Below are positions 13,008 to 29,564 of a stretch of DNA of 30,521 nt, one piece after another. Position 1 is the stretch's first letter. Each line of letters opens with the position of its first letter. Origin of the DNA: a virus. The stretch spans positions 16,131-46,651 of the IMG/VR virus record IMGVR_UViG_3300002518_000014; one strand, written 5' to 3'. The position numbers and the translations under genes are program-made. The notes beneath the pieces were generated by a model. That model was given only the letters and a program-made list of their open reading frames with translations, was not told the DNA's origin and did no database searches.

Positions 13008-16000
13008 TTAACAAACATTCGAGTTCTGACCGTCGGAAACATTAGCCTGAGAGTTTTCATCCGTGTCTGCTTCTGCTTCCTCGTTGTTCATTTGATCCAA
13101 AAGCATCAAAAGAATATAAATAATTCCGAAAGGTGTTGGGGGCATCATAAAGAGGCCCGAAATGGTTCCCGTAAAGTCTATGCCGTTCAAAGTCATACGT
13201 GGACCAAGAAGGGGCGCGTCCATCCCCTTAATGCCCCCAGGTATCTTATCAGAGGCCTGTGCATTTAAAGTGTTTAGACCACAGAAACCCAGCGCCAACA
13301 GGTCTTCTCCGGTGATTGCTTTAAGAATCGGCAGCATCGGAGATGCATCCGGCTGCGTGGATTCTGCGTAGTCAATTCCTGTGTCAATTATGCGAGTAAC
13401 ATTCCCAAAGAGTTCTCCGGTAATGTCCCGAATTATCTTTGAGATAGCGACGTGAGGATCAATAAGTTCTACAACTCCCTTCAGAATTTTAATAGGTGTT
13501 TCTCGAATGGCCTTAAGAATAAATTCACGAATATTCATATCGAGATTTGATTGTCCGTCAGACGCAAGCTCATTATTTAAGGCCGTCGCGGTGTCCTGAT
13601 TTGCCAATGGTGTGGGGCGCTGTGTGCGCGAAACCATATTAAATAAATCTAGAATAACCTGTTTTGTAGTTTCAAAATCTTTTTCAATGCCGGGGAAAAA
13701 GAAGCTCGTAAGTCCCAAATTATACAAAACCGGTATCATCATCGCAAGTTCTGGATTAAAGGTTTGAGTAATAAAGCGCTGGTATTCTTGGTTATCTAGT
13801 ATGCGACGGACATGTTTGTCTGGATTCGTCTTTCGAAAGCGCCGAATATTAGCAATCTTCGTCTCTGTGGATAAGGTCGCTTCGTCGTTAGGATTGTTCA
13901 GCTGAGCAGTACCCATGGAAGGAATTCCGGGGCCATTATTGTCAGAGGGAGGAGGCGAAGTATTGGCTATATCTGCTAACTGATTGGGATCAAACTCCCC
14001 AATCGCGCGGATGTCAACAGTAAGCATTTCCCCTAATATTTGTGGACCCTCGTTTTCGGCATCAAGATCAGACATTGCTGAATCTAAAATGGAATCCATC
14101 CCTACTGCGCGTCCCTGCAGCCTCAGCGCTGTTTGAATTACGTTGCGGGCGGCGCCAGGGCGGAACGACTGCACAAAGGGAGAATTACTCTGATCCCAGT
14201 CGGCGGCCTGATAGCTGGCGCCCCTGTACGAAGGAAAGTTAAAGATTAATTTATAGCCGCACTTAACATTTTCAAAACTTGGTCGGGGGCCATCCGTTAG
14301 TTCGATCATATCTATGAAGTCAACTGCTGTGGTCGTTCTAATAGGCATAGCTCCTGGCCCGGCTGAACCAAAAACATTTTGAATAGATAGTTTGTGTCGC
14401 GGGACCTCCATCACCGGTCGTTCACCGTGAGTTTCTACAAATTGTTCTATTGCCGCTTCTCGTAGAGCATCAGCAGTGTATGTTGAGGGGTCGGTGGGGA
14501 CCGCCGCTAGCATCGTGGCATAGGCAGCATCGTATTCAGTCTGAACTGGTTCGAGCTCTCTTGCGTCCCAAGGGACTAATATTTCTGACGATGCCACATC
14601 ATTCCAATTAGAGATGGCGTCCCAATAAACATATTTAACAAAAACCAATCTTCCGTCGGAGTGTTTCATTGGGGCATTTCTCTTACCATAAGGCGCGCCA
14701 TATATTCCTAATATTTCTTTAATAAAGATTTCATCGAATGTTTTGCTGGCGCCGGCCGAACGAAGAACATTGTTGATAGAACCCATAGTTGTTACCGTTT
14801 GACCACAAGCCTGATACGTATGACCAAACCTTTCTTCTACTAGGAATCTTACTAATTTACTAAATTCCATTTTCTCCATATCAGCTTCTGGGGTCAAGTA
14901 TGGGACGATATTCTTTTTATCGTAGGAATGGGCGATTCCTCCGGCCTCTATAACAGGCTCACGCGCGAGTTTGGTTTCAAAATGCTCATAAATATATTCT
15001 TTAACGGTTCCGCCGGCCAATCCTAGACGAGTAGTTAGCTCACTTGTCAGACTTGTTAAAATTAAATCAGTAAAAACTTTCTTCTCAAAGACTTCATCAA
15101 ACCTAAATGCACTAAAAACAAAAATATTTTTAATTAAAATTTCGACAATACACACCTGTATCAGAAGTTGAAGTAATGCATACTTGAGGGCTGCTTCAAC
15201 CAGTTCCTGAGGTGTGCCGTCATCGTTACACGACGATTGAAGAAATTCTTCTTTAACTTGGTTTAGGATTCCCCGCACATCAAGCAAATCTCCAACCTGT
15301 GATGGTTCACAATTAGTATTGTCTTTAAACAAGTTTAGCCGGTTGAGACCCACCATATCAAATATCCCATTACGTTGGATATAAGCAAAAGTACGTTTTA
15401 TGATCCCGTTAAAAGCCGTAGGGTATACTTGCTTTTGAAGTTTATTTTGGAGATATTTTTTATTCGTGGAGTTCAGGGGCCCCAGAGACTCTAACTGTTT
15501 TTGGAGAGGATATGTAAAGTTAAATATATAGGGGTTAAAATCGCTCTCCGATCCATAGGAGGCCAAAAGGCCATCCGGAGAAGTGCCGCCCTTGGCCCAG
15601 TCAAAGAGCGGTGTAAATGAATCATCGGCCACATTAATATTAATCCACCCGTTTTTAACCCCGGGGAGCAGCTTGCTGGGATATCCCAGCCTGGCCGCGG
15701 GCCGGCGGCCTGAGGATATATCATTATTAGAATAGAATTCCAGCCTAATGGGGTCGACCTGCCGCGGCGATCCGCCTGGGTTGATGGGCGATAAGAACTG
15801 ATATTGCATTCTAAGGCGGCCGTATCGTTTGGTAGTGCGGTCTAATAACATCTTAGAATAATATGTTCTTTTGCCCCCTGGCGAGTTAGTAGTTGTAAGC
15901 CATACGTCCGGCACCGTTCCTTGAATATTTTCATAGCTAGGGGGGCCCTGATGTGCCATGGCGCGAAAGTGATTATAAAACTGGGTTGGAAAAACATATG

Positions 16001-19000
16001 TCACATAGGGAACGTTGACTCCTCCCGATTCGATGTTATCTTTTAGGTTTCCAACGCTGGCTTCAAGTTGGCCTAGTTCGCCTTTGGACGCTTTCAGCGC
16101 ATCTTGCAAAATATTATTTAAAATAGGCAAAGCTTCGATAAACTCATCAATAGTCGTCCCAAATTTACTCATATCAATATCGGGACATATCGCCGGGTCG
16201 ATCTTAAAATCTGGGTCTTGTAGTTTTTCAAAAATGGTAGTTAGAATAGTTAAAAAGGCCGTATCTATCTCGGGTGGATCCGGCAGAGCGTTAGTGTGGG
16301 TCAGGGCTGCAATAACGGCCGGGTTTGGATTAGCATCAACCTGAGGCTCCAAAATCGTTGTTCGGGTCGCTTCGATAGAGTATGTAAACTGCATCCTTAC
16401 ATTCTCGATTAGTGTATCAAAAAGTTGGGGAATGATTCGGCTTACAATAGGGTTTGGAACAAACTTATCGTTTTCCGGACATAAAAAGTCAATAGGCGGA
16501 ATCTCTACTGGTACACCATCGTTTAGGTAGTCGGCCAATTTTTGAATAGATGCCTGATCTGCCAAAGTTGCTTTATCGGCCTCCTTCAAGCAGAAATTTT
16601 CAATACTAGCTCGCACATCTTGATCGATGTATTCATTACATACTCGACTGATGTCGCACAGCTGGCTCATACTGTTGAAAAGTGACAAAATTTGATTGCG
16701 ACTCTGCATTTTCTTAATGATCTCGTCGGAATAACTCTTATTGAACACAGCTATCTTTCGAATCGTTTCGTCGGTTACATCAGCCGGAGACATGTATAAA
16801 CGACAAATTTCTAGAGGACTGAGTACTCCCGAGACAGCACTTATATAATTAAAGCCCCTGTCCTGATCTAAACCATGTTTCCGAAAGGCATCATCTATCA
16901 GGTCTTGCATATTAGGAAGATTAATCGGCTCTACCGTATTATCTTTCATTGCATCCGCTGCATCTAGAGCCCCAATGTCCCGGTCGGCCAAGTTATCGCA
17001 ATTATGCTTGATTAGTTCGCAGATCCCCTTGATTATATCAAAAGCAACCTCGGCCAAGGTCTGTAGAACTATATCCAGAATTTGCTGCCAAAGGGGCGGG
17101 TCACCCGTAATATTAAAAATTGCCGGGAGTTTGGGCCAATCGGGAATAACAATTAAGGGAGGCGGGATAGTAGGCTTTTCATAATCTTCAATAAACTCGG
17201 CGATACTAAATCCAAAATCAATCGCATGATTAATTCTAGCTAACGAAAAACTTGAGCCCATTGTTAAACAAATGAGGGCTTCATTAATCAAATCCGCGAT
17301 GCCCAGCATCTCCAGCACCTTGTTGACTATTTCTAACACGTCGCGGGCTTCGCTAGCGGGGCCACCTTCTGCTCTATCGGCGCTAAGTTTTTCCTCGGCA
17401 TCCTCAAGCTTGCCTCGCCAATGGGTTATCTCTTCTTCGGTTCCGGTTTCTTCTGCAATCTCCAACTCCAGCTGTGCATCGCGCTTCTCTTCTAATAGGG
17501 CCGTGCGTTCCTCTGCCGCGGCGTTCACCCCCTTCGCTTCCTCAACTAATTTAATAACCTCATCTATCATATCCTTTAGGGGGAAGGTGGCTGAAAATTT
17601 TTCCTGTGCAGCTGAATTATACATTTGTGCTAGCATCTTTGGATCCTGCATCGCCTGCTGCATCTGAGCGGCTTGGGGAGACGTCATAAAAGTAGAGATA
17701 CCTTCCACTAGCTTCGATGGATTCAGAACATCCAGAGGATGCGAGGTACCTTTAAACACCATGTGATACTGATGGGGGTCGATCCCGGGCGGTACCGGGG
17801 CCGCTAAATCTAATGGTAGGTCCGCCAATTCGGCGTCGGCTTTGACTTTTGCTAGCTCCGGATTTGCTGCTATTTCTTCCGGTGTTGCGTATAGAACTCC
17901 GGGGGGCCTCAGAAGGGGGCCATATGTCCTATGAATGAACCCTAGCAGATTCGTTAGGCCTCGGCCGGAGCGGCCATCGGCTCCCCTTTCTATAACTTTG
18001 TCCACAATTTCTTGTGCGCGGAGCAACGTAATCATTACCCACTCATCATTTAGTGCCGGATTGTGTTTGACTAAAGAGAAATAGCCAATTTTAAGGGGTC
18101 GCGGCATAACTCCCGGGCCTGCACTATAAGTTATGGATTGAACTTTGTACTTGTCGGTGACATCAATGGATAGATGATCATTTGTGCTAAATGGATTTAG
18201 ATCTATACCAGATAAATTCATATCGCGGCGCGCCATATTGGTTAACAAGCTTATTAGACCAGTTACATCTTCTTTAACCGCACTCAGATCAAGCGGAATT
18301 CTAAGTGGTGCGGGGAATCTCTGGATATCAGTATGGTAGGCTGTCAATATCTCCCGTAGGTTAGCCGAGGTTTGGGGGGCTAGGCCCAGATTGAAGCTAC
18401 CGTCGTCGAAGTGGCCGACACTCTTCGTGAGGAGTTCTTGTTGAGCGGTGAAAAATTCTAAGGCTATTGGGAATGGAGGAAAGCCCGAACTATAAGAAGG
18501 CAATTCTCTTTCTTCATAGGGAGGAGGAGGGCAGTCCTGGTCGCCCTTGACGCGAGATTTTAATTCATCTAAAACGCGCTCCTTGGTCTCCGCGTCGGCA
18601 TCATAAACATATAATCCCAGACGAACGTCTTTAAAATTTATAGAGCCCGCGGTTGATTCATATAAATACTTGGGCGCAGTGGCGGCCGATTTAGGATCTG
18701 ACTTGATCTGCTTAATGCTAGCTTTTATCTGTGTGCGCAAGGTAGCATAGGTATCTCGATAGCCGCCATCAGGGAGCGTGATGCCGAGGCGCTTTGCGTC
18801 TCCGCCATAAATATAAGGATAAAACTCTGGTAAATAAAACTCAATAAAGGCATCAGCGGCTTTGTGATCAAGGAGTTCTGGGTCTAGCAGATCAGTGGAG
18901 CCTTCCGGAAGGGCTGCCGGTTGTACGATGACCGCATACACCCCCTTTTTTGGATTATACCATGGTATATTCGGAGGAAATTTTTGAAATATATTTAAGC

Positions 19001-19019
19001 TGTCAAAATCAATAGTCAT
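13008..19019 (-). CDS. 2003-aa probable virion structural protein, unknown fold
   Basis: I do not recognise a family. The open frame encodes 2003 aa, with ATG 2 bp after the stop of the spike-associated gene. Features: an N-terminal region with Pro-rich strings and 'LGLYVYDADAETKERVLDELK'. A charged helical/coiled-coil stretch spans about residues 495-555 ('RTALLEEKRDAQLELEIAEE' inside it). Alpha-helical segments with scattered Cys lie between 600 and 850 ('LCDISRVCNEYI'). A Pro/Asn linker occurs around 1690 ('SPPPSDNNGPGIPSMG'). A hydrophobic run near residues 1963-1975 ('FGIIYILLMLL') is followed by an acidic, Asn/Gln-rich tail. It lies between the hub/spike genes and gp25, a position where T4-like marine phages often carry a very large structural protein. 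A role in baseplate wedge or periphery (gp7-like in scale) is inference only. Coding status is certain because it is uninterrupted for 6 kb. Confidence 0.8.
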   Translation of the reverse strand: MTIDFDSLNIFQKFPPNIPWYNPKKGVYAVIVQPAALPEGSTDLLDPELLDHKAADAFIEFYLPEFYPYIYGGDAKRLGITLPDGGYRDTYATLRTQIKASIKQIKSDPKSAATAPKYLYESTAGSINFKDVRLGLYVYDADAETKERVLDELKSRVKGDQDCPPPPYEERELPSYSSGFPPFPIALEFFTAQQELLTKSVGHFDDGSFNLGLAPQTSANLREILTAYHTDIQRFPAPLRIPLDLSAVKEDVTGLISLLTNMARRDMNLSGIDLNPFSTNDHLSIDVTDKYKVQSITYSAGPGVMPRPLKIGYFSLVKHNPALNDEWVMITLLRAQEIVDKVIERGADGRSGRGLTNLLGFIHRTYGPLLRPPGVLYATPEEIAANPELAKVKADAELADLPLDLAAPVPPGIDPHQYHMVFKGTSHPLDVLNPSKLVEGISTFMTSPQAAQMQQAMQDPKMLAQMYNSAAQEKFSATFPLKDMIDEVIKLVEEAKGVNAAAEERTALLEEKRDAQLELEIAEETGTEEEITHWRGKLEDAEEKLSADRAEGGPASEARDVLEIVNKVLEMLGIADLINEALICLTMGSSFSLARINHAIDFGFSIAEFIEDYEKPTIPPPLIVIPDWPKLPAIFNITGDPPLWQQILDIVLQTLAEVAFDIIKGICELIKHNCDNLADRDIGALDAADAMKDNTVEPINLPNMQDLIDDAFRKHGLDQDRGFNYISAVSGVLSPLEICRLYMSPADVTDETIRKIAVFNKSYSDEIIKKMQSRNQILSLFNSMSQLCDISRVCNEYIDQDVRASIENFCLKEADKATLADQASIQKLADYLNDGVPVEIPPIDFLCPENDKFVPNPIVSRIIPQLFDTLIENVRMQFTYSIEATRTTILEPQVDANPNPAVIAALTHTNALPDPPEIDTAFLTILTTIFEKLQDPDFKIDPAICPDIDMSKFGTTIDEFIEALPILNNILQDALKASKGELGQLEASVGNLKDNIESGGVNVPYVTYVFPTQFYNHFRAMAHQGPPSYENIQGTVPDVWLTTTNSPGGKRTYYSKMLLDRTTKRYGRLRMQYQFLSPINPGGSPRQVDPIRLEFYSNNDISSGRRPAARLGYPSKLLPGVKNGWININVADDSFTPLFDWAKGGTSPDGLLASYGSESDFNPYIFNFTYPLQKQLESLGPLNSTNKKYLQNKLQKQVYPTAFNGIIKRTFAYIQRNGIFDMVGLNRLNLFKDNTNCEPSQVGDLLDVRGILNQVKEEFLQSSCNDDGTPQELVEAALKYALLQLLIQVCIVEILIKNIFVFSAFRFDEVFEKKVFTDLILTSLTSELTTRLGLAGGTVKEYIYEHFETKLAREPVIEAGGIAHSYDKKNIVPYLTPEADMEKMEFSKLVRFLVEERFGHTYQACGQTVTTMGSINNVLRSAGASKTFDEIFIKEILGIYGAPYGKRNAPMKHSDGRLVFVKYVYWDAISNWNDVASSEILVPWDARELEPVQTEYDAAYATMLAAVPTDPSTYTADALREAAIEQFVETHGERPVMEVPRHKLSIQNVFGSAGPGAMPIRTTTAVDFIDMIELTDGPRPSFENVKCGYKLIFNFPSYRGASYQAADWDQSNSPFVQSFRPGAARNVIQTALRLQGRAVGMDSILDSAMSDLDAENEGPQILGEMLTVDIRAIGEFDPNQLADIANTSPPPSDNNGPGIPSMGTAQLNNPNDEATLSTETKIANIRRFRKTNPDKHVRRILDNQEYQRFITQTFNPELAMMIPVLYNLGLTSFFFPGIEKDFETTKQVILDLFNMVSRTQRPTPLANQDTATALNNELASDGQSNLDMNIREFILKAIRETPIKILKGVVELIDPHVAISKIIRDITGELFGNVTRIIDTGIDYAESTQPDASPMLPILKAITGEDLLALGFCGLNTLNAQASDKIPGGIKGMDAPLLGPRMTLNGIDFTGTISGLFMMPPTPFGIIYILLMLLDQMNNEEAEADTDENSQANVSDGQNSNVC

Positions 19020-19021
19020 AT

Positions 19022-20026
19022 CTAATTCAAATTATTGTACTTACTCAAAATATAGCGCTTTCCTTTAAGCCCACCGGGGTTTTGAAGATATTTCGTACTA
19101 AGGGCAGCTCCCTGCTCTTTCCCTTTTTTGCCATTCATATTATCTAGCGCCATGAGAGGAACTTCCACGTTTAAGGCGGAGTGAATAATGCACTCTGCTG
19201 TTTTCTGAGCAACGGAAATTGACGGAGCTGACGGGAGGCCGTAAAAAGAGGTGTTATGAACATGAAAAGCCAACGAAAGGTTGATTTGTCGTTGATAGTC
19301 CAATGCTGTAGTAAGCCGAGTCGATAAAGTAGCAATATTCGCCATCATTGCTATCAAGCAGGCTTTCAAATTGTCCCCCTTAACCATCGGCTGCATATCA
19401 CTAGAGTCGTTCATCCCGATTAGGTCAATTCCATATTGTTTCGTGCTGCCGGCGCCTTGTTTGCCTCCCTGAGAATTTTTCTTGTCAGTACGAGTAACGA
19501 ACTTAATGTTCTCGCGCGCTACGAAGCGTAAAGTATCGGCCTTTAATACAATAGTGGAGCGCGGTGTTGCGCGCGTAACTTTTCCGACTGTACCAGCCGG
19601 AAGATCAAAATAGTGTACTCCATCGACACCAGCCTTTTGGCTTATGTATATCCGGGCTGCATCTTTTGTAAAGTTGGGGTCACAAACAACTTCTGTTACG
19701 CCGTCTAGTCCAACCTTTTCGTGTGACTTCGCCTCCTTTCCTAGGCGCCCCGCAACGATATCAACAGAGGAACATCGGATGTGGCCTTTGCCGCCAAATC
19801 CAGATGGCGGCTTGTGAGTCCGGTCATATCCCAGAACAATCCATGAATTGCCATTGCTCATAACCATTTCATCTTGTGTGGAATTATACTTAGGACAATC
19901 ATAAACCTGACGGCCCATTCCCATTATCCCTGTCACTCGGGCTTTGCCCTCAGGAGGCAAGCTTAAATATTTTTCAAGTTCTGGTTCCGGAAGTACCTCT
20001 TCAATTTCATTAATACCGTCTGCCAT
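19022..20026 (-). CDS. Probable baseplate hub/spike-associated protein, 334 aa
   Basis: A 334-aa protein resembling the baseplate spike/hub partners of marine T4-like phages. Residues 117-145 read 'NFTKDAARIYISQKAGVDG', followed by 'HYFDLPAG'. Residues 155-180 contain an 'STIVLKADTLRFVARENIKF' segment, like the alternating-strand repeat of gp5/VgrG-type spikes. Residues 216-256 are a long helix ('MVKGDNLKACLIAMMANIAT') ending in 'AFHVHNT', then 'PSAPS', similar to the 'H-H...PS' end of gp5-like proteins. A family-level guess of a hub/spike component follows from motifs and neighbours: the hub-like hydrolases precede it and the wedge genes follow. It contains no enzyme motif I can see. The RBS is AAGGA ahead of the ATG; the stop is 2 bp before the next gene. 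Confidence 0.65.
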   Translation of the reverse strand: MADGINEIEEVLPEPELEKYLSLPPEGKARVTGIMGMGRQVYDCPKYNSTQDEMVMSNGNSWIVLGYDRTHKPPSGFGGKGHIRCSSVDIVAGRLGKEAKSHEKVGLDGVTEVVCDPNFTKDAARIYISQKAGVDGVHYFDLPAGTVGKVTRATPRSTIVLKADTLRFVARENIKFVTRTDKKNSQGGKQGAGSTKQYGIDLIGMNDSSDMQPMVKGDNLKACLIAMMANIATLSTRLTTALDYQRQINLSLAFHVHNTSFYGLPSAPSISVAQKTAECIIHSALNVEVPLMALDNMNGKKGKEQGAALSTKYLQNPGGLKGKRYILSKYNNLN

Positions 20027-20035
20027 ATTTTATCC

Positions 20036-21331
20036 TTACGCTTTCACATCCTTGAGCGGTCCATCAAGAAGTCTTTGTGCCCACTTTTTGTACGAAGCTG
20101 ATACAAAGTGAACGGGAGTTGTCTCTTCTTTATGTTGTAAATCTTGTGTTAGTGGTTTCATATTATACCATGGTATTCCGGCCGACGTTAAATACTCCTG
20201 CTGATAGGCTGCGATTACTTCTCTCTTTTTCTGATATGAAGGTTTTCCGGAGAAGGAAGGACCAAACCATATTAACTGCGCACCCAAATCTTTGACCGTC
20301 TTTACCCACAAGGCAAGCTGTTCTTGATAAACCGCCTTCTTGCTTGATGACGAATATGAATTTGAGTCATTACCTCCTAGTTCTACTATAACTAGTCCTG
20401 GACGAAAACTCTTCATATACGAAACCAAATGACCGTTCTCCTTATTCACCCCAAAGTAGTCCGCTTTAGAGCCGGCGGATGTTGCTTCTGGGCCGGAGGA
20501 TCCTCCCTTGGCTTTCATACCAGATAAAACTCCTTGACCATACTTCGCCAGAAGCTTTACATCGATGCCCCTTTCTTTTAGCTTTGCTTTGATGGTCCTA
20601 GTTAAATAAGTGTTGTCCGATTGGCTGTCGCCGAGCCACAGTACACGATTGGTTTTAACTTCTGGAAGAGGGGAGGGCCACGATGGAAGATTTGTTGGGA
20701 TCGGGCTGGGCGTCTGCCCTCCGCCCCCGGAACCGCCAAGTATTGTGGGCGCGCCATGGGTTCCCAACACAAATTGGTTCCCGGGGGGATCCGGGAATAT
20801 CGTGCTTATGTCGAAGATCTTTTCTCCTACCCGAACAATGCTTGCTCCCTTTAATTTGGGAAGAGCCGGCGCGCGCACAATTACAAAGGCGCCGGGGGGA
20901 ATGGCGCCCTGAAAATCACTTACCGAAATAGAGACTGCCAATCCCCCGGCAGGGGAAAGGGTTGCAACACGTTTTTGAAACTTTTCGGGAGACTCAAAGT
21001 CTGCACTTGTTAAATTAGATTGTATGCAGGGGGCCCATACTTTATAAGTGAAATTAAAAGCAGTAAAATGTGTGCGTCCGGATTTTTCATAACGTGCTTT
21101 ATCAGCCGCTGAACTCAGCTGAGGGTAAGTTTTTGCTTCATAGGCAACTACAATGCCGGGAATATGATCTGGATATTTTAAAATCGACGAATATTTACTC
21201 TTATTCGTCGCCCAGAGGGCCATTGCGGAGGAGGCGGTAGTGGTCCGGGACGAAAATGTGGCGCCGCCGGATCCTTCCCAATCGCCGGTAAACAAAAAGC
21301 TGCAATCAACATCTTTAACGGTAAAGGCCAT
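20036..21331 (-). CDS. Hub-like adaptor fused to SGNH/GDSL hydrolase
   Basis: A 431-aa two-part protein. Residues about 58-195 are a close paralogue of the same region in the upstream gene (shared 'SGRTHFTAFNFTYKVW', 'VSDFQGAIPPG' and 'FPDPPGN'). After a Gly/Pro linker (197-225), residues 228-425 look like an SGNH hydrolase. Block I is 'VLWLGDSQSDN' with the nucleophile Ser236, the oxyanion Gly is in 'KYGQGVLSG', block III is 'VELGGNDSN' (Gly319, Asn321), and the catalytic His408 is in 'TPVHF'. The usual Asp three residues before that His is Thr here, so the triad may be a Ser-His dyad or use another acid. Such enzymes deacylate esters; in a tail they could de-O-acetylate surface glycan or peptidoglycan. 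The substrate is unknown. The ATG overlaps the previous stop as TAATG. Confidence 0.82.
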   Translation of the reverse strand: MAFTVKDVDCSFLFTGDWEGSGGATFSSRTTTASSAMALWATNKSKYSSILKYPDHIPGIVVAYEAKTYPQLSSAADKARYEKSGRTHFTAFNFTYKVWAPCIQSNLTSADFESPEKFQKRVATLSPAGGLAVSISVSDFQGAIPPGAFVIVRAPALPKLKGASIVRVGEKIFDISTIFPDPPGNQFVLGTHGAPTILGGSGGGGQTPSPIPTNLPSWPSPLPEVKTNRVLWLGDSQSDNTYLTRTIKAKLKERGIDVKLLAKYGQGVLSGMKAKGGSSGPEATSAGSKADYFGVNKENGHLVSYMKSFRPGLVIVELGGNDSNSYSSSSKKAVYQEQLALWVKTVKDLGAQLIWFGPSFSGKPSYQKKREVIAAYQQEYLTSAGIPWYNMKPLTQDLQHKEETTPVHFVSASYKKWAQRLLDGPLKDVKA

Positions 21332-22752
21332 TAGGAATGGTAGCCCTTCTTTTTAAGAAGTTCAACAGCGGCGGAGTCAGCTAGGACAAGTGCGCGGGCT
21401 TGTTTCAGAATGTCAACTGTCTCTTGCGGCTTGTGTCCAAGAGGTTTTGAAGAGTTCGCGCCGCCCTTGCAATATGCTCCATAACCTCGCTGGCAGCCAT
21501 TGCGTTTTCGCTCATATTGAAGCGGAATCGAGGCCCATTCTAGAGCGGCCTCCTGTGCGGCTCGTCCAACATTACTGTGAATTCCTACAAGGAATTTTCC
21601 TAGTTCTTTACGTTTCATTAATAATAGATAAACTCCCAAAGTTTCTTGTACGTCGGGCGAAAATTTCAAAGATTTAGAAGTTTTTGTATCTCTAATAGCT
21701 CCATCAAAAGTATCGGGGATAAATTGAGATTTTCCAACCGCTAACAAGCCCGGATTGCCAGGGGGGGAAGACATTGGGCGATGTCCTTGCAAAACGTGGC
21801 CCGCGTTGGAGCCTTTCTTCATATAAGATCGCAGCATCTTGATTGTCATCTCGGTAATATTTTTTCCTTTGGCCGGACCGCCTAAAATATAAGTAGAACT
21901 ACGCTTAGTATCACCAGCGACGCCTCGATTAACAGAAGTATATTTTCCTTCATGTGCACCAATCCAGTCTAGCAATGGCTGCAGCGGCTTTCTTAAAATT
22001 TTTAGTTCATTAAAAGTAAATTTAAGCCGGGCAGGCGATTTTGGTATATTATCGTTACATAGGCCTTCCCGTCCTTGAGGGGTGCACCCTGAGGGCGCTG
22101 GTCCGACGCCCGGGGCGGGGGCCCCTCCGCCAGATGACTGAGTATATCCTCCTACGGTCCCCCCCGCGCCCATCACAAATTTATTACCGGGTGGGTCAGG
22201 AAACTGTATACTAATATCAAATATTTTATCCCCAACATACATTATCTGTCCGGTCTTAACCTCACCCAGATTGCTAAATTTAACTGTTACAAAAGTACCC
22301 GGGGGAATAGCACCCTGAAAATCACTAACGTCAATAGATACGGGATAGCCGCCGGCTGGGGACATCCCGGCTACTTTTTTTTGAAATTTCTTTGGGTCGA
22401 GTGCGAAATCTTCCACTGTTAAATCTGCATAGATACAGGGAAGCCACACTTTATAAGTAAAATTAAAAGCAGTAAAGTGAGTACGTCCGGATTCCTCGTA
22501 GCGCGCCTTTTGTACAGCAGATTTTAACTCAGGGTGGGTCTTTGCTTCGTATCCTACAACAAGGCCGGGCTGGGGATTTTGTAACTTGAGCTGCACTTCC
22601 CAAGCTTCGCTATTAAGCATCTTCATCCTATAGGCATCGCTATTTCTAAGCGTGCGGCGATCCGCGACGGGGCCCGGGGGAAGAAGGTCCTCTTGTTCAA
22701 GTCCCGAAAAAAACAGGGCCGGATTCTTAATCTCTTTGATTTCGAACGCCAT
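21331..22752 (-). CDS. Hub-like adaptor fused to lysozyme-like domain
   Basis: A 473-aa protein with the same N-terminal module (about 60-195) as its downstream neighbour, then a Gly/Ala/Pro linker (200-222). Residues about 245-392 have the pattern of a tail-associated lysozyme/transglycosylase. 'LLDWIGAHEGKYTSVNRGVA' carries a candidate catalytic Glu268, 'ITEMTIKML' follows, and then 'LAVGKSQFIPDTFDGAI', like the 'GRYQ-I-P-T' block of phage muralytic enzymes, and 'FSPDVQETLGVYLLL'. The last 80 residues, including Cys420 and Cys428, are an extra segment of unknown role. The likely job is local peptidoglycan cleavage during DNA injection, analogous to T4 gp5 lysozyme but with a different domain arrangement. 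Start and stop overlap neighbours as TGATG and TAATG, implying translational coupling. Fold assignment is by eye. Confidence 0.78.
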   Translation of the reverse strand: MAFEIKEIKNPALFFSGLEQEDLLPPGPVADRRTLRNSDAYRMKMLNSEAWEVQLKLQNPQPGLVVGYEAKTHPELKSAVQKARYEESGRTHFTAFNFTYKVWLPCIYADLTVEDFALDPKKFQKKVAGMSPAGGYPVSIDVSDFQGAIPPGTFVTVKFSNLGEVKTGQIMYVGDKIFDISIQFPDPPGNKFVMGAGGTVGGYTQSSGGGAPAPGVGPAPSGCTPQGREGLCNDNIPKSPARLKFTFNELKILRKPLQPLLDWIGAHEGKYTSVNRGVAGDTKRSSTYILGGPAKGKNITEMTIKMLRSYMKKGSNAGHVLQGHRPMSSPPGNPGLLAVGKSQFIPDTFDGAIRDTKTSKSLKFSPDVQETLGVYLLLMKRKELGKFLVGIHSNVGRAAQEAALEWASIPLQYERKRNGCQRGYGAYCKGGANSSKPLGHKPQETVDILKQARALVLADSAAVELLKKKGYHS

Positions 22753-23057
22753 CAGCTCTCCTCGGGCTTATTCAGTAAATCGAATATTTGTTCCTTGTCA
22801 TCGCTAGTTAGACCAAACTGCGTTGTCTTTTGCTTTTGTAGCAAGCTCGCTAATTTGACCAGTTGCTCATTAGAGCGCTGTAGATTTTCCACATACTTGG
22901 CGGCGATCGATCCCAATTCGCGGCGCGCGGAGTCAGACATTTTCATATCCTGGATAGCATCCATAAGAAGAGACTTGGCCATTGCGCGATCTTCGCGGAT
23001 ATTGGTGGTTGTTTCTTCTATATAATCATCTAGATTTAGATTGCGCCGCTTTCCCAT
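22752..23057 (-). CDS. Small helical protein of unknown function, 101 aa
   Basis: A 101-aa, strongly helical, charged protein with no recognised domain. It begins 'MGKRRNLNLDDYIEETTTNI' and contains a long amphipathic helix region (35-75) with 'ENLQRSNEQLVKLASLLQKQ'. Its start lies inside the end of the sigma gene (22-nt overlap) and its stop overlaps the lysozyme-fusion ATG, so it sits in a translationally coupled set. Small proteins of this look occur next to gp55 in T4-like marine phages, as I recall, without known function. I keep it because of spacing and length, not because of a motif. Confidence 0.75.
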   Translation of the reverse strand: MGKRRNLNLDDYIEETTTNIREDRAMAKSLLMDAIQDMKMSDSARRELGSIAAKYVENLQRSNEQLVKLASLLQKQKTTQFGLTSDDKEQIFDLLNKPEES

Positions 23058-23734
23058 TTTTCCTTAAAAGTCCTATATCGTTTTCTTAGCTTATTGAGAT
23101 TATTAACGACTTGTTTGGTGTTGAGTCCTGTTATCTCTCTTAAGTATAGATAAATAGCTTTTTTGTTAAAAATTTCGATTGTGTCAGCAGAATCCATTAA
23201 TATACGAACAGCCATTAAAACCTTTTTTTCATTTTCTTTGAGCATAAATGAATCCCACGTTTTCATCTCCGAATTAAAAGAAACCCAGAATTCAACGTCT
23301 TCTCGCCGGGTTTCATAACTGGGCTCAGTAGATATTAGGTCATTATCCAGCTGATTGACCACATCTTCCAAATAGACTTCTGTGCGATTCTGTTTTTGAA
23401 CTTTTTTAACTTTATGAATGAACCAGTTTTTAGTTACTACAGAAAAGTAGGAAAAAGCCTTAGACCCTTTGGTGGGATCATATTTATTGAGGATCGTTGT
23501 GAGCCAAATTTTACACTCATCTTTTAAAGAATCTATATTTGGCAAACTTGTAAATCGATACGTATAAATGATTTTATCGACCATTTGATCAAATGCCGGC
23601 TGAATATACTCTATGTATAATTTAGTTCGAAGTTCACGGTCTTCGGTGTTGGCGTACTTAACTATCGCATTTTCATGGACCTTCGTGAAATAATGGTTCT
23701 TCGTGCTTTTCTTCCGCCGCGGTTTCGATCTCAT
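23036..23734 (-). CDS. gp55: Late-transcription sigma factor, T4 gp55-like
   Basis: A 232-aa sigma-70-related protein close in size to T4 gp55 (185 aa), with the N-terminus 'KNHYFTKVHENAIVKYANT'. Residues 70-110 match the gp55 region-2 core: 'LKDECKIWLTTILNKYDPTK', then 'AFSYFSVVTKNWFIHKVKK'. In T4, gp55 binds host RNA polymerase, recognises TATAAATA late promoters, and works with gp33 and the sliding clamp. It has no full region 4. The last 50 residues ('LREITGLNTKQVVNNLNKLR') are helical, like the C-terminal end in these proteins. The ATG lies 62 nt inside the preceding membrane-protein gene; no later Met gives the conserved 'HYFTK' start, so I accept the overlap. It implies that most structural genes here are late genes. 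Confidence 0.92.
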   Translation of the reverse strand: MRSKPRRKKSTKNHYFTKVHENAIVKYANTEDRELRTKLYIEYIQPAFDQMVDKIIYTYRFTSLPNIDSLKDECKIWLTTILNKYDPTKGSKAFSYFSVVTKNWFIHKVKKVQKQNRTEVYLEDVVNQLDNDLISTEPSYETRREDVEFWVSFNSEMKTWDSFMLKENEKKVLMAVRILMDSADTIEIFNKKAIYLYLREITGLNTKQVVNNLNKLRKRYRTFKEKWESGAI

Positions 23735-24492: not shown

Positions 24493-24665
24493 CTCTTCTT
24501 TGTTTCTAGAGTTGTGAGCCGTGTGTCAATGTCTTTTAGATGACCTTCCATGTCGCGCGAGAGGCTTCTAAATGCGACTCGCAACATCTGGTCGATCACC
24601 TCCCTCACCTCTTGTTCTGTAAGTGGCGAGTCTAGTCCACTCGATCTTTTTGATGATTTTTTCAT
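24489..24665 (-). CDS. Small charged protein, 58 aa
   Basis: A short gene easily missed by length cut-offs. ATG at 24665 follows GGAGG (24673-24677) by 7 nt, and the 58-aa frame ends at TGA (24491-24489), which overlaps the next ATG as ATGA. The start codon also overlaps the stop of the GDP-mannose dehydratase gene (ATGA). The product is very polar: it starts 'MKKSSKRSSGLDSPLTEQEV' and has a helical middle ('VIDQMLRVAFRSLSRDMEGH') and a coiled-coil-like end. Without it there would be a 169-nt gap in a region with no other gaps. Function unknown. Confidence 0.8.
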   Translation of the reverse strand: MKKSSKRSSGLDSPLTEQEVREVIDQMLRVAFRSLSRDMEGHLKDIDTRLTTLETKKR

Positions 24666-25645
24666 TTTGGTACCTCCGTATTTTTGACCAACTTGTAGTC
24701 AGCATCATACATCATTTCTGCCAACTGTTTAAAATTTATTTTAGGCTTCCATCCCAAATTTTCTTGTGCTTTTGTGGGGTTTCCCAATAAATAAGGGACT
24801 TCGTGAGGCCTAAACAATCTAGAATCTATCTTAACATACTTTTCAACATCGTTTAAACCCGCATATTCAAACACATACTTTAAAAACTCACGTACCGTAT
24901 ATGACTTGCCAGTAGCAATCACATAGTCGTCTGGTTTTTTTTGTTGCATCATTAACCACATTGCCTTCACATAGTCGCCGGCGAAGCCCCAATCGCGTTT
25001 AGCGTCGAGATTGCCTAAAAATAATTCTTCTTGAAGCCCCAGCTTTATGCGGGCGGCCGCTATAGTAATTTTTCGTGTCACGAATGTTTCACCTCGCCGT
25101 GGGGATTCATGATTAAATAAGATACCACTAGATGCATGCAGTCCGTAACTTTCCCTATAGTTCCTCATAAGATTGTGTGAAAAAACTTTAGCGCATGCGT
25201 ACGGGGAAGCGGGACGCAGTCTGGATTCTTCATCAAATGGAATATTTAAGTTGTCTCCGAACATCTCCGAAGACGAAGCTTGATAAAATTTAGCCGTCGG
25301 ACATAATTCTTTATATGCATTCATTAGTCGTAGCGTCCCCATAACAATAGAATCTACAGTTTCCTCAGGGACACTAAAGGAGACTCGAACGTGAGACTGG
25401 GCTGCTAAGTTGTAGATCTCATCGGGCTGGTATTTGTTTAGCAACTTCCAAAAACAACCAGCGTCGTGAAGGCTGCCGTACTCTAATATCAAATTAGGAT
25501 GAGTAAAAATTGTGTCAATACGATCGGTAGTAATAAGTGATGTGCGCCTTTTAACACCAACTACCCTATACCCCTTAGAAAGAAGTAACTCAGCCAAATA
25601 AGAGCCGTCTTGACCGGTGATTCCAGTAATTAATGCTGTTTTCAT
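24662..25645 (-). CDS. gmd: GDP-mannose 4,6-dehydratase
   Basis: An extended SDR enzyme converting GDP-D-mannose to GDP-4-keto-6-deoxy-D-mannose. I chose ATG 25645 (327 aa) because it gives the family start 'MKTALITGITGQDGSYLAEL' and has an AAGGA upstream; a longer frame would run 85 nt into the previous gene. Visible: NAD(P)-binding G8xxG11xxG14 motif, 'NLAAQSHV', the catalytic segment 'QASSSEMFG' (Ser125, Glu127), Tyr149xxxLys153 ('SPYACAK'), and the GMD signature 'FNHESPRRGETFVTRKIT'. The Tyr-to-Glu spacing (22) equals that of E. coli GMD. Length is close to the bacterial norm (about 345-370, slightly short). It follows the fucose-synthase-like gene by 13 bp, so both steps to a GDP-6-deoxyhexose are adjacent. 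Confidence 0.93.
   Translation of the reverse strand: MKTALITGITGQDGSYLAELLLSKGYRVVGVKRRTSLITTDRIDTIFTHPNLILEYGSLHDAGCFWKLLNKYQPDEIYNLAAQSHVRVSFSVPEETVDSIVMGTLRLMNAYKELCPTAKFYQASSSEMFGDNLNIPFDEESRLRPASPYACAKVFSHNLMRNYRESYGLHASSGILFNHESPRRGETFVTRKITIAAARIKLGLQEELFLGNLDAKRDWGFAGDYVKAMWLMMQQKKPDDYVIATGKSYTVREFLKYVFEYAGLNDVEKYVKIDSRLFRPHEVPYLLGNPTKAQENLGWKPKINFKQLAEMMYDADYKLVKNTEVPK
24673..24677 (-). promoter_or_regulatory. Shine-Dalgarno for the 58-aa gene
   Basis: GGAGG lies 7 nt before ATG 24665, inside the last codons of gmd. It is the main evidence that the 58-aa frame is a real gene. Confidence 0.75.
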
Positions 25646-25658
25646 TATAAATTCCTTT

Positions 25659-26552
25659 TTAGAAGGGCCTGTACCAATTATAAGTCTGTGCAACACCTTT
25701 GTCAAATGGTGTGAAGGTGTAGGGGCCAATAGTCTTCTTTAACAACTCATTTGCTCCGTCTTTACGATGTTGCCCCTCTAGTTTCTTATTATAAACAATG
25801 TTTATATCAATGTTTAAGTGTGAGATCAAAATTTTTGCCATCTCATTAATACTTAAATTCTCATTGGGAGCTACGATAATAGGTTCTGGCCCGTGATGGT
25901 TCTGGACGAGAAGAGGAATTATCTCGCAGAGATCATCCACATAAAGCTGCTGGCGCAATGGTTCGCCGGTGCCCCACAAAGATAAGGTGTCACCATCTTT
26001 AAGGTTGGCTAGCTTTGTAATAAGGGCGGCTATAAAGTGCGAATTTTCACTATCGAAATGATCATCGGGCCCATACACGTTGGAGGGACTAAAAGTAGAA
26101 TAGTTAACTCCATACTGCTTTCGGTACGACAAAACTAATGCATGCAAGAGGCGCTTTGAATAACCGTAGGAAAAATTTGTCTCCGCACAGGGGCCGCTAA
26201 AAATGTTTTCCTCAGTAAACGGATAGTGATCTACTACATCGGGAAAGGCACATGTACTGATGGCTGCTAGGACCCGGTGAACGCCGGCCTCGTAGGCAGC
26301 CCTCAGTACGTTGATATTCATTAATACATTCTGCTCAAAAAATTCTACTTGATTAGAATTGTTATCTTTAATGCCGCCCACCCGGGCGGCTAAGTGTACC
26401 ACTGTGTTGGGTCTAATATCCTTAAACATCTGTTTGGTGGCTGCGGGGTCTAATAAATTATAATCTTTGGAAGAAGTATACACCCAATCCGGTTGTTGAA
26501 GCCTTAGGCGCCTCGCAATAAATCCGGAACCTCCCGTTACAAGTGTTGTCAT
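25659..26552 (-). CDS. fcl: GDP-L-fucose synthase-like epimerase/reductase
   Basis: A 297-aa SDR protein of the GDP-L-fucose synthase (WcaG/Fcl) type, which would use the GMD product in an epimerase-reductase step. Motifs: 'LVTGGSGFIARR' (G7xxG10xxA13), 'HLAARVGGI', active-site 'STCAFP' (Ser99, Cys101), Tyr129xxxLys133, 'SPSNVYGPDDHFD' and His172 ('SHFIAAL'). The His172-Tyr129 spacing (43) matches Tyr136/His179 of the E. coli enzyme. The third glycine of the nucleotide loop is Ala. Start ATG 26552 is 3 bp after the previous TGA, with an in-phase TAA between. Alternative products are possible: enzymes of this family also act as ColC-type epimerase/reductases in colitose synthesis, which would fit a deoxyhexose pathway. 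Overall confidence in the family is high, in the exact product moderate. Confidence 0.85.
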   Translation of the reverse strand: MTTLVTGGSGFIARRLRLQQPDWVYTSSKDYNLLDPAATKQMFKDIRPNTVVHLAARVGGIKDNNSNQVEFFEQNVLMNINVLRAAYEAGVHRVLAAISTCAFPDVVDHYPFTEENIFSGPCAETNFSYGYSKRLLHALVLSYRKQYGVNYSTFSPSNVYGPDDHFDSENSHFIAALITKLANLKDGDTLSLWGTGEPLRQQLYVDDLCEIIPLLVQNHHGPEPIIVAPNENLSINEMAKILISHLNIDINIVYNKKLEGQHRKDGANELLKKTIGPYTFTPFDKGVAQTYNWYRPF

Positions 26553-26555
26553 TTA

Positions 26556-27506
26556 TCACCAAATGAAATTGTTTTTATAAAATTCCACAATTTTAGGAAT
26601 CTCTTCATCAAAATTTTTCTTAGGAGCCCAGCCTAGGGCTCTTAGCTTAGTATCGTCTAAAGCATATCGTACATCCTGGCCCGGGCGGTGACACGATAAA
26701 TCCAAATATTTCTCCCAATCGTTATCGGTTCCATAAAAGGCCCCAATTGTTTTTCGAATCGTTTCTTTGTTTGTTTGTTCAAATCCGCCTGCAACATTAT
26801 AGATTTGGTTAGTTTGACCGCTCTCTATAATCGTCATTACGGCTGCAGCGGTATCATCAGCATGAAGCCAGTTTCTTATCGGCGTCCCATTATTATGTAG
26901 GCGAATTTTCTTCTCCCTAAGGAGATTCTTGATTGCCAAAGGAATAAGCTTTTCAGGATATTGACCAATTCCATAATTATTGGTGGGTCGAAGGATAAGG
27001 TAGTCGATGCCATAGGTTCGGGCCCACGCGTGAATCAGCATATCGCCAGCAGCCTTTGCCGCAGAATAGGGATTGCTTGGCTTAAGAAGGTCTTTTTCGG
27101 TGTGGGTACCACTAACTATATCCCCATACACCTCATCGGTGCTTATATGAAAAAATGTAGGGCGCTCATTACAATTAATTGGTTTAAACCTCACCAAATC
27201 TAACAAATTTCTTACAGCAATAATGTTGCTACTAATAAACTCGTCACTATTAATAATACTATTTCCCACGTGGGATTCGGCCGCAAAATTTATAAGATAA
27301 TCGCAATCATATAAGCGATCTAAATCTTTAATATCTTTTTGTTCGAACTCAAAATTAGGATATTCTCGAAATTCATCTAATAGGCTGGGATTGGCCGCAT
27401 ATGTCATCTTATCAACTCCGCGGACCTTCCACCCGAGATCTAAGGCTTTCCGTACCACATAGGAGGCCATAAACCCCAGACATCCCGTGATGTAAACTAT
27501 TTTCAC
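26556..27506 (-). CDS. rfbB: RmlB-like dTDP-glucose 4,6-dehydratase family SDR
   Basis: An extended SDR with the RmlB pattern: 'ITGCLGFMAS' (G8xxG11xxA14), 'INFAAESHVGNSI', the catalytic loop 'HISTDEVYG' (Thr123, Asp124, Glu125), Tyr147xxxLys151 ('NPYSAAK'), 'TNNYGIGQYPEKLIPLAI' and 'IRNWLHADD'. These are diagnostic of NDP-glucose 4,6-dehydratases, which make the 4-keto-6-deoxy sugar. I start at GTG 27506, giving 'VKIVYITG' and a GTGA overlap with the RfbH stop; a GTG 36 nt upstream is possible but adds an unlikely leader. The nucleotide (dTDP or CDP) cannot be told. The family normally has Gly at position 14 and 'GGAGFIGS'; here it is 'GCLGFMAS'. It sits between the RfbH-like and fucose-synthase-like genes; no nucleotidylyltransferase is visible to supply the substrate. 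Confidence 0.85.
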   Translation of the reverse strand: MKIVYITGCLGFMASYVVRKALDLGWKVRGVDKMTYAANPSLLDEFREYPNFEFEQKDIKDLDRLYDCDYLINFAAESHVGNSIINSDEFISSNIIAVRNLLDLVRFKPINCNERPTFFHISTDEVYGDIVSGTHTEKDLLKPSNPYSAAKAAGDMLIHAWARTYGIDYLILRPTNNYGIGQYPEKLIPLAIKNLLREKKIRLHNNGTPIRNWLHADDTAAAVMTIIESGQTNQIYNVAGGFEQTNKETIRKTIGAFYGTDNDWEKYLDLSCHRPGQDVRYALDDTKLRALGWAPKKNFDEEIPKIVEFYKNNFIW

Positions 27507-28846
27507 ATTAGCACCCGAAAGTTGAAAAATTCTTTTACACACTTCTCGATATAATCAAGTTTTTCATCGGTAAGTCCGTAATAGGTTCCCAAAAAGAAAC
27601 TATCTTGAGTTACTTTGGCAGCCACCGGGAAGGTTTCTTCTAGAACCCCATATGGCTCCGCCAAATGGATGTAGCCCGGGTGTGCCAACACAAGACCTGT
27701 GAAATATGACCTGGTCTGTATTTTTTTGCTTTCCATAAAATCAACAAAATCCTGTCTCCCAATTGAAGATCCATCGCGGACTGTCAGTAAAAACCCGAAC
27801 CAGCAAGGATCTGCCTTATGGGTAGGCTCTGGAAGGTGAAAGTAGGTCTCGTACGGAGCAAAAATTTCCTTAAGCCTATTGAAGTTCTTTCGGCGCGCCG
27901 AGTCTAGCATCGGCAATTTCTTAATCTGTTCTAGACCCATTGCTGCTGCAAGATCCAACGGCTTTAAATTATAACCAATTTCATCAAAAACATATCGATG
28001 ATCAAAAGTAGTGGTCTTCATTCCTGGAAGCCATTGTTGAAACCTATTACCACAAGCGGTTCCGCTAGTTACCGAGCCCGGCTTGGCCGTATTACAGTAG
28101 CAGGCTCGTCCCCAGTCACGATAACTAGCGAGAACCATTCGTTTGACAGTGCTGTCGGTGGCTACAAAGCCACCCTCGCCCATCGTCATGTGGTGTGCTG
28201 GAAAGAATGAGCACGTTGAGATCGTCCCAAAAGAGCCTAGCTTCTTTCCATCGTAGTAGGAGCCTAAGGCATCGCAAGCGTCCTCAACAAAAATTAGATT
28301 GTATTTCTTAACTAAAAACATTAAGCGGTCCATATCGGGAGGGTTTCCCAATACGTGCGCAAACATAATACCTTGAATTTCTGGGTCTGCTTCTAGGGCA
28401 GCTTCCACTTGATCCAGGTCTAAATTTAAGTCCGGTAACGTTACGTCAACAAACACCGGAACAAATCCATTTTGGATAAGAGGGTTAATAGTAGTAGGAA
28501 AGCAAACAACGGGAGTGATGAATTTAGCTCCCTCTTTAAGATTAAACCATTTCCGAGACTTAAGAGCGCTGACCGCCAGTAAATTTGCGGAGGATCCCGA
28601 ATTCGTTAGTATGCCTGCTTTCTTTCCCAGATGTTCAGCAAACTGAAGCTCGAATTGGCGGCCGTTCTGGCCGAAAATTAACCACTCACCCAATAAACTA
28701 TCAATAGCGGCCACATACTCTTTGTCATCAAAGATGGGGCCCGAATATGAAACCCAATCCTCCCCGGCGGTCCACTCTTCACTCTCTCGTTTTTCAATGA
28801 TATATTCTTTAACCAGATCAAGAATCTGTTGTCTTTTTTGGTTCAT
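27503..28846 (-). CDS. rfbH: RfbH/E1-type NDP-4-keto-6-deoxyglucose 3-dehydrase
   Basis: A 447-aa member of the DegT fold, the E1 enzyme of 3,6-dideoxyhexose formation (CDP-4-keto-6-deoxyglucose 3-dehydrase). Decisive is 'SFFPAHHMTMGEGG': His218 takes the place of the PLP-binding Lys of aminotransferases, as in E1 (His220), so it should use PMP for C3 dehydration. The four [2Fe-2S] ligands of E1 (Cys193, 251, 253, 261) are present as Cys191, 249, 251 and 265; the third-to-fourth spacing is 13 instead of 7 residues. The N-terminal 'SYSGPIFDDKEY' and the C-terminal 'SRKIQTR'-type block ('SKKIQTRSYFTG') also match. E1 works with a reductase (E3), which is not visible here. It is 3 bp after iscU and overlaps the next start by GTGA. 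Confidence 0.93.
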   Translation of the reverse strand: MNQKRQQILDLVKEYIIEKRESEEWTAGEDWVSYSGPIFDDKEYVAAIDSLLGEWLIFGQNGRQFELQFAEHLGKKAGILTNSGSSANLLAVSALKSRKWFNLKEGAKFITPVVCFPTTINPLIQNGFVPVFVDVTLPDLNLDLDQVEAALEADPEIQGIMFAHVLGNPPDMDRLMFLVKKYNLIFVEDACDALGSYYDGKKLGSFGTISTCSFFPAHHMTMGEGGFVATDSTVKRMVLASYRDWGRACYCNTAKPGSVTSGTACGNRFQQWLPGMKTTTFDHRYVFDEIGYNLKPLDLAAAMGLEQIKKLPMLDSARRKNFNRLKEIFAPYETYFHLPEPTHKADPCWFGFLLTVRDGSSIGRQDFVDFMESKKIQTRSYFTGLVLAHPGYIHLAEPYGVLEETFPVAAKVTQDSFFLGTYYGLTDEKLDYIEKCVKEFFNFRVLM

Positions 28847-28849
28847 TCT

Positions 28850-29239
28850 TTATTCTTTCTGGGAGCCCTTAATTTCCAAATCTTCAATGGCTGCTTTAAT
28901 AGCTTCTTCGGCTAACACAGAACAATGAATTTTAACGGGAGGAAGAGACAACTCCTCTACAATCTGCATATTATTAATTTCAGCAGCTTCTTTTAGGGTC
29001 TTGCCCTTGAGCCACTCGGTAGCCAAAGAAGATGCGGCGATGGCTGACCCGCATCCAAAAGTCTTAAACTTTGTGTCACAAATACAGCTCTTATCATCTA
29101 CTTTAATCTGAAGTTTCATGACATCGCCACATTCTGGCGCGCCGACGATGCCCGTCCCCACCCTACTGTCGTTCTTATCCAGAGACCCGACATTTCGCGG
29201 GTTATCAAAATGATCAATTACTTTTTTAGTATACGCCAT
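28850..29239 (-). CDS. iscU: IscU-type Fe-S cluster scaffold protein
   Basis: A 129-aa IscU, nearly the same length as the E. coli protein and with similar text throughout. The start ATG 29239 gives 'MAYTKKVIDHFDNPRNVG', and AGGAG (29248-29252) sits 8 nt upstream. Cluster ligands Cys37 ('APECGDV', with Asp39), Cys63 ('FGCGSAIAASSL') and Cys106 ('KIHCSVLAEEAI') are all present, and the chaperone-binding LPPVK motif is intact at 99-103. It should assemble a [2Fe-2S] cluster with sulfur from a cysteine desulfurase, which is not visible and would come from the host. An IscU scaffold is uncommon in phages, whereas IscA/HesB-like proteins are frequent. It is placed just before the cluster-dependent RfbH gene and after iscA. 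Confidence 0.95.
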   Translation of the reverse strand: MAYTKKVIDHFDNPRNVGSLDKNDSRVGTGIVGAPECGDVMKLQIKVDDKSCICDTKFKTFGCGSAIAASSLATEWLKGKTLKEAAEINNMQIVEELSLPPVKIHCSVLAEEAIKAAIEDLEIKGSQKE

Positions 29240-29247
29240 AATATTTT

Positions 29248-29252
29248 CTCCT
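29248..29252 (-). promoter_or_regulatory. Shine-Dalgarno fixing the IscU start
   Basis: AGGAG on the minus strand lies 8 nt before ATG 29239 and overlaps the iscA stop codon. It supports the short start over a longer frame that would add 13 residues inside iscA. Confidence 0.8.
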
Positions 29253-29559
29253 AAGAAAACGAAGACCCACAGCCACAAGTAGTATTTGCATTAGGATTGT
29301 TAAAACTAAATCCTTGCTGTTGTAATGTCACCACATAGTCTACTGTTGTATCGTTTAAAATAAATGAACTGTGAGGATCTACATAAACCTTTACGTTACC
29401 ATATTCTATAAGAATATCCTCCTCGTCGAATTCGTCTTCTATGCTCAGCGAATATGACATTCCAGAGCAGCCGCCGCCCTTTACAGCGACCCTTATCACG
29501 TCACCCTCTTCTAGGGCGCCCCTAAGATGAGTCACGGCTGCTTCTGTGAATGTAACCAT
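29251..29559 (-). CDS. iscA: IscA/HesB/ErpA-family Fe-S carrier
   Basis: A 102-aa A-type carrier. The three conserved cysteines are Cys31 ('GGGCSGMSY'), Cys95 and Cys97 ('TTCGCGSSFS', the family's C-terminal signature). A-type carriers pass Fe-S clusters from scaffold to target enzymes. The start ATG 29559 is 5 bp after the radical SAM stop, with a GGAG upstream; length is normal for the family. IscA/HesB homologues recur in marine T4-like phages, a known pattern; having IscU next door is the unusual part. The end runs to 12 nt before iscU, so the two are likely co-translated. Confidence 0.93.
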   Translation of the reverse strand: MVTFTEAAVTHLRGALEEGDVIRVAVKGGGCSGMSYSLSIEDEFDEEDILIEYGNVKVYVDPHSSFILNDTTVDYVVTLQQQGFSFNNPNANTTCGCGSSFS

Positions 29560-29564
29560 TTATC

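Follow-up and report, generated by a model that had tools for sequence, protein, structure and literature searches.

In phage T4, the matured form of the tail-associated lysozyme (gp5*, an OB-fold followed by a lysozyme) enters the periplasm (PMC3004832). The baseplate hub protein gp15 of cyanophage A-1(L) combines a lysozyme, an endoglucanase and a peptidase domain in a single polypeptide (PMC10966104), and in specialised VgrGs one effector end can be swapped for another (PMC10433429). The locus described here comes from an uncultivated-virus fragment of 46.7 kb (IMG/VR record IMGVR_UViG_3300002518_000014), of which positions 16,131 to 46,651 were analysed; this whole stretch of 30,521 nucleotides is called the window, and its numbering is used throughout. 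It holds two neighbouring minus-strand genes, hubA (21331-22752, 473 aa) and hubB (20036-21331, 431 aa), each of which would encode an OB-fold hub module, a linker and a C-terminal domain: lysozyme-like in hubA, of the SGNH hydrolase type in hubB. We think it probable that the two are tandem hub paralogues of the gp5* type with swappable wall enzymes (a lysozyme and an SGNH esterase) that are delivered together for a two-step attack on the wall.

An earlier note on this DNA had described two adjacent paralogous genes with a common N-terminal module, and both ORFs bear this out. BLASTP aligns the two proteins over 198 residues (107 identical, or 54%; E 4e-65); the alignment ends at residue 198 of hubA and residue 193 of hubB, past which the same comparison found no meaningful alignment. 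The shared module accordingly covers residues 1-198 of hubA (22159-22752, minus strand; OB core at about 56-183) and residues 1-193 of hubB (20753-21331, minus strand), the latter also recognised by the module HMM and placed in the module tree. Conservation is strongest at residues ~57-193, in agreement with the module of about 135 residues given in that note, and the long identical run SGRTHFTAFNFTYKVW is exact. The Gly/Pro linkers are likewise present (about residues 199-242 in hubA and 194-222 in hubB) and have AlphaFold2 pLDDT values mostly below 45. hubA is read first and hubB second, with one base common to both ORFs (TAATG), which suggests translational coupling. At the DNA level the modules are only 55% identical: different codons are used at 59% of the identical residues and 65% of fourfold sites differ, so that the identity of the module proteins is kept by selection and does not reflect a recent copy, and purifying selection acts on both modules. 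The same codon differences rule out that the identical runs stem from a duplication or gene conversion of recent date.

The pair lies within a contractile-tail baseplate cluster, all of it on the minus strand. Upstream are a T4 gp55-like late sigma factor that marks this side of the slot (23036-23734; phrog_234, E 2e-5) and an ORF of about 100 aa that is conserved in relatives (22752-23057). Downstream are a conserved 334-aa gene (19022-20026), a giant protein of 2003 aa whose position is conserved in relatives (13008-19019), a gp25-like baseplate wedge protein (12585-12968; phrog_261, E 4e-15) and a gp6-like one (10774-12564; phrog_219, E 1e-21). The 334-aa gene had no match in Pfam, PHROGs, PDB or a cultivated-phage collection; its fixed position directly after the hub slot, in a group with 481 relatives in IMG/VR, points to a putative separate central-spike protein, and we refer to it as the spike-like gene. 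With that many relatives it is also a good marker gene for this phage group. In the cultivated-phage collection the module and the SGNH protein, like the spike-like gene, had no relative, and sequence profile searches found no significant PDB relative for the module, the spike-like protein, the SGNH domain or the lysozyme. A 63-kb IMG/VR contig represents practically the same virus (99.99% over 17.8 kb, with both hub genes in agreement). Beyond the gp6-like gene, a giant ORF of at least 3068 aa (3-9206, minus strand) extends out of the window; a supposed 9-kb geneless region there was an artefact, as this ORF leaves the window at that point. On the other side, upstream of the late sigma factor, 24662-30503 (minus strand) holds three nucleotide-sugar epimerase/dehydratase genes (one of them a GDP-mannose 4,6-dehydratase), an aminotransferase and a NifU-like gene; the three sugar genes also occur in one of the nearest relatives (L006).

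The shared module had been proposed to dock on the baseplate, and its predicted fold and its position adjoining the gp25 and gp6 cluster support this well. In the AlphaFold2 model of hubA (mean pLDDT 72.6, with a confident C-terminal domain), residues 56-183 form a five-stranded OB-fold (strands at 61-70, 98-103, 136-140, 153-161 and 166-176) with moderate pLDDT, 64-88. It resembles the spikes of contractile injection systems: PVC spike (Z 7.3), Anabaena CIS (7.1), phage P1 baseplate (7.0), VgrG1 (6.7) and phage Mu (6.7). The comparison with gp5 that the earlier note had recommended aligned the module to residues 6-120 of T4 gp5 (1k28_A, Z 6.6), though the match is a generic one, with IF1 (Z 7.9) scoring above gp5. 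Matches among predicted viral structures (BFVD) include Gp5 N-terminal OB-fold proteins and the baseplate hub of Sinorhizobium phage phiM12. Neither chain has a C-terminal triple-stranded beta-helix, as both end with the enzyme domain, and for this reason we call hubA and hubB gp5*-like rather than gp5. The gp5-type trait of a lysozyme after the OB-fold belongs to hubA only, an SGNH domain taking its place in hubB; the specialised-VgrG trait of a gp27-like part fused to a gp5-like spike is absent, the module being a single OB-fold of fewer than 200 residues. On this structural and positional evidence, hubA and hubB are probably located in the virion at the tail hub.

The same slot recurs in about 90 relatives, all uncultivated-virus contigs. 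Wherever the loci read contain enough sequence, gp55 is followed in turn by the small ORF, the hub slot, the spike-like gene and the giant gene, the exceptions being a few extra ORFs inserted in single loci. An iterated module HMM matched 92 of the 113 slot ORFs, in almost every case at the N-terminus. Most module groups are linked by profile comparison through the largest group (probability 80-98%, controls at most 1%); the group of L093 links only in the iterated HMM search. The C-terminal ends vary. Pfam assignments over 82 slot proteins comprised VanY (23), Amidase_2 (7), GDSL_2 (6), M23 (5), M15_4 (4), DUF459 (4), Phage_lysozyme2 (3), GH19 (3) and SLT (2), with one each of Muramidase, M74, Phage_lysozyme and CHAP. 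A survey for further enzymes on the same module, suggested in the earlier note, therefore returned VanY/M15, amidase, M23, M74, GH19, SLT, lysozyme, CHAP and SGNH ends, or none. The window's nearest relatives have a single hub gene with a GH19-like end (L006, L019, L020) or a VanY end (L009). Four slots hold a module of about 195 residues and no enzyme (L043:3860-4447, L064:3854-4432, L065:3874-4455 and L080:328-960); their spike-like genes form one clade, so the enzyme there seems to have been lost or never gained. At the other extreme, L022:847-4452 and L105:302-4303 combine several enzymes, fused in a slot of 1201 aa or adjacent in two ORFs; the domains are VanY, amidase-like and, apparently, alpha/beta-hydrolase.

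The two ends in the window differ as had been noted, a lysozyme fold in hubA and an SGNH fold in hubB. The hubA domain (residues 243-473; 21334-22026, minus strand) has its best structural matches in the baseplate hub of cyanophage A-1(L) (8kea_A, Z 11.8) and in lambda lysozyme (3d3d, Z 9.8), and its homologues occur in cyanophage tail-region proteins. The proposed catalytic Glu268 (codon 21949-21951) is kept across aligned homologues. By its fold and this glutamate, the domain is predicted to be a lambda-type lysozyme or lytic transglycosylase, with hydrolase or transglycosylase chemistry a matter of prediction. The hubB domain (residues 223-431; 20039-20665, minus strand) was modelled at modest confidence (pLDDT 63.9 for hubB). 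Its first six structural matches are all PatB and Ape1 (Z 17.5-16.2; PatB 8tlb 17.5, Ape1 4k3u 16.2), which add or take off the O-acetyl groups of peptidoglycan, and it matches Pfam DUF459 above the cut-off (E 4e-9).

The active site of hubB is less orthodox. It keeps Ser236 of block I, Gly265 of block II, Asn321 of block III and His408 of block V, but the position three residues before the catalytic histidine is Thr405 (ACT, codon 20117-20119) rather than Asp, at least two base changes away from GAY; block V also has Pro406 in place of Gly and a two-residue insertion. (This reading leaves out a MAFFT alignment in which block V of distant SGNH domains was misplaced.) In gonococcal Ape the corresponding residue, Asp366, is indispensable (PMC6174289), so the hubB esterase may be impaired, and we class hubB as having an SGNH-fold domain, not an active SGNH hydrolase, because of the replaced aspartate. 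It is quite possible, if not the reading we prefer, that the SGNH end of the window phage is decayed or has been repurposed, for example for wall binding, without esterase activity. Relatives that carry the same family (L194, L195 and L196) keep TDGVH at block V; in hubB the other four motif residues have survived, however, the frame is intact, and residual activity from a Ser-His dyad is conceivable.

If the domain is active, its substrate may plausibly be acetyl groups on peptidoglycan, as the structural neighbours suggest. An enzyme acting instead on lipids (as a TesA-like lysophospholipase or arylesterase) or on O-acetylated surface polysaccharide seems to us rather unlikely. The bacterial sequence relatives retrieved by the SGNH motif do resemble TesA esterases, two reports describe SGNH hydrolase or deacetylase domains on phage tail fibres and tailspikes (PMC11058221, PMC8471582), and nucleotide-sugar genes lie in the window region. 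TesA itself, however, ranks below PatB and Ape1 in structure (Z 14.7, a gap of about 1.5-3 Z units), and the sequence profile matches, which are weak, are level (Ape1 E 0.036, TesA E 0.061). A hub enzyme would moreover be released in the periplasm, behind capsule and O-antigen, and its slot partners are wall enzymes.

A wall-directed role for both ends gains from the way the pair recurs. Two or three module genes in the slot were found in exactly six phages of the set, with about five origins. Besides the window phage (lysozyme and SGNH), L195 and L196 have SGNH and lysozyme in the reverse order, L194 has an M23, lysozyme and SGNH triple, L093 has M74 and M23 ends on modules that are 69% identical, and L027 (1488-4196) has a lysozyme (phrog_27932) and an M23 end on modules that are 91% identical in protein with half of the fourfold sites different, an independent tandem pair. 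The three hub paralogues of L194 (129-4136) share one module, three being also the subunit number of a gp5-type trimer. Other slots with two ORFs, such as L048, L068, L087, L101, L105 and L112, are left out of this count, their second ORF having no detectable module. Mapped on the tree of the spike-like gene, the tandem state requires five changes, at least four of them by well supported branches; as L194-L197 were retrieved through the SGNH domain and not through the spike-like gene, the sample is no guide to how common tandem slots are in the group. The proposal that a gene was duplicated and its enzymatic end then exchanged is strongly supported: most relatives have a single module gene, the enzyme varies by phage, and tandem copies arose about five times.

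The lysozyme and SGNH families of the window sit on three divergent module lineages, those of L194, of L195/L196 and of the window. Among the window, L194 and L195, identity is ~50-68% for the lysozyme domains and ~40-61% for the SGNH domains, while the modules of the three lineages gave no mutual BLAST matches. Modules group by phage and enzymes by type. The window's hubA and hubB modules form a clade in the module tree (support 99/99), and constraining the lysozyme-bearing or the SGNH-bearing modules to group together is rejected (AU p 3e-46 and 5e-39). A single ancestral lysozyme/SGNH duplication common to all carriers, without later homogenisation of modules, is ruled out by these tests; it follows that enzyme ends moved between module lineages or that modules were homogenised within phages. 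In either case the lysozyme-SGNH pair has stayed intact across three module lineages. Every locus in which this SGNH family was found (L193-L197; L193 represents the window's virus, and L196 and L197 a single phage) has this lysozyme family next door. The two other SGNH slots recognised also have companions: in L072, SGNH is paired with a phage lysozyme (PF00959) and M23. In L112, where Pfam matches neither ORF and both ends are read by eye, the partner is a module protein that seems to end in a SleB-type wall hydrolase. The recurrence of the lysozyme-SGNH pair suggests teamwork between the two enzymes in opening bacterial walls.

How such a team might act can be outlined. Each protein would begin with a disordered stretch, followed by an OB-fold docked at the baseplate centre, a flexible Gly/Pro linker and a wall-active enzyme, with the OB module as the fixed part of the slot and the enzyme as its swappable end, duplicated in this lineage so that the copies bear different ends. 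Tail contraction would carry both enzymes into the periplasm. There, in phages that retain the catalytic acid, the SGNH enzyme would take O-acetyl groups off MurNAc C6 and so free the hydroxyl needed by a lytic transglycosylase, and the lysozyme would then cut the glycan. Lytic transglycosylases require a free MurNAc C6 hydroxyl (PMC5077204), so an SGNH de-acetylase would be a natural helper. The docking of both enzymes on one hub and the order in which they act are what we infer from these comparisons, and the window phage itself may have little or no esterase step left. The two-step attack put forward in the earlier note is plausible: the nearness of the SGNH fold to PatB and Ape1 and the pair's presence on three module lineages speak for it. 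The missing aspartate, needed by Ape, speaks against it in the window phage and is where the model is weakest for that phage.

More tentatively, the paralogues (two, or three as in L194) could dock around one spike, so that a single virion delivers complementary wall enzymes. Mixed docking is conceivable since the OB-enzyme protein and the spike seem to have separate genes, and type VI secretion, where heterotrimers have been proposed, offers a precedent (PMC10433429). On such a mixed hub, the modules within a phage would stay alike because they must fit each other and the same site. The converse, in which hubA and hubB never meet in one virion and separate homotrimeric hubs give two kinds of particle as bet-hedging across hosts or wall states, we consider improbable. 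T4 gp5 forms homotrimers, with its own beta-helix driving their assembly (PMC3004832), Serratia VgrG1 and VgrG2 form no heterotrimers (PMC4924876), and the purifying selection on both modules is what would be expected if each can stand alone; but the same enzyme pair on three lineages suggests joint action, and other slots reach two or three enzymes by fusion in one chain or by an extra ORF, which implies co-delivery. Least credible is that hubA and hubB are endolysin-type lysis enzymes that lie near tail genes by chance, since, for all that the hubA lysozyme domain matches phage endolysins (phrog_90, E 1e-9) and lambda endolysin, the OB module is present even in the four enzyme-less slots and always adjoins the spike-like gene, and one relative matches phrog_27932, 'baseplate hub subunit and tail lysozyme'. 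We therefore retain the reading of tandem gp5*-type paralogues that act together on the wall, for which the comparative evidence is solid and the enzymatic roles are predicted.

What the slot offers, then, is a constant OB module with an interchangeable wall enzyme at the tail hub, where duplication gives one phage two or three. From the recurring lysozyme-SGNH pair one would predict that phages overcome O-acetylation or other esterification of the wall as they enter, by the same chemistry through which bacteria make their own walls accessible to lytic transglycosylases. The matched wall enzymes of the slot form a natural library, and the slot is a clear test case for heteromeric phage hubs.

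Set beside the known systems, the locus resembles each in part. T4 gp5 has an N-terminal OB-fold, a linker and a lysozyme at the centre of a contractile-tail baseplate, and hubA has the same order; unlike gp5, the chain has no C-terminal beta-helix of its own (the spike may come from the next gene), there are two paralogues, one with an SGNH end, and the lysozyme is of the lambda/A-1(L) type. A-1(L) gp15 is likewise a multi-enzyme hub, and its lysozyme domain is the best structural match of hubA, but all of its enzymes sit in one polypeptide on a barrel hub domain (PMC10966104), whereas the window phage has its enzymes on separate OB-fold paralogues. Specialised ('evolved') VgrGs of type VI secretion are also spike or hub proteins with swappable C-terminal domains and several paralogues per system; they differ in fusing gp27 to gp5 and in having toxins as effectors, where the phage scaffold described here consists of a short OB module. 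Ape1 (an O-acetylesterase) and PatB (an O-acetyltransferase) share the SGNH fold and are the top structural matches of hubB (Z ~15-17.5), yet they are cellular periplasmic enzymes with an intact Asp-His-Ser triad, and hubB lacks the Asp and any significant sequence match to them. A hub slot with an OB socket, tandem duplication and a lysozyme-SGNH pair was not found described in the open-access literature searched. Multi-enzyme hubs are already known; new here are the short OB module as a socket, its repeated tandem duplication and the recurrent pairing of lysozyme and SGNH ends.
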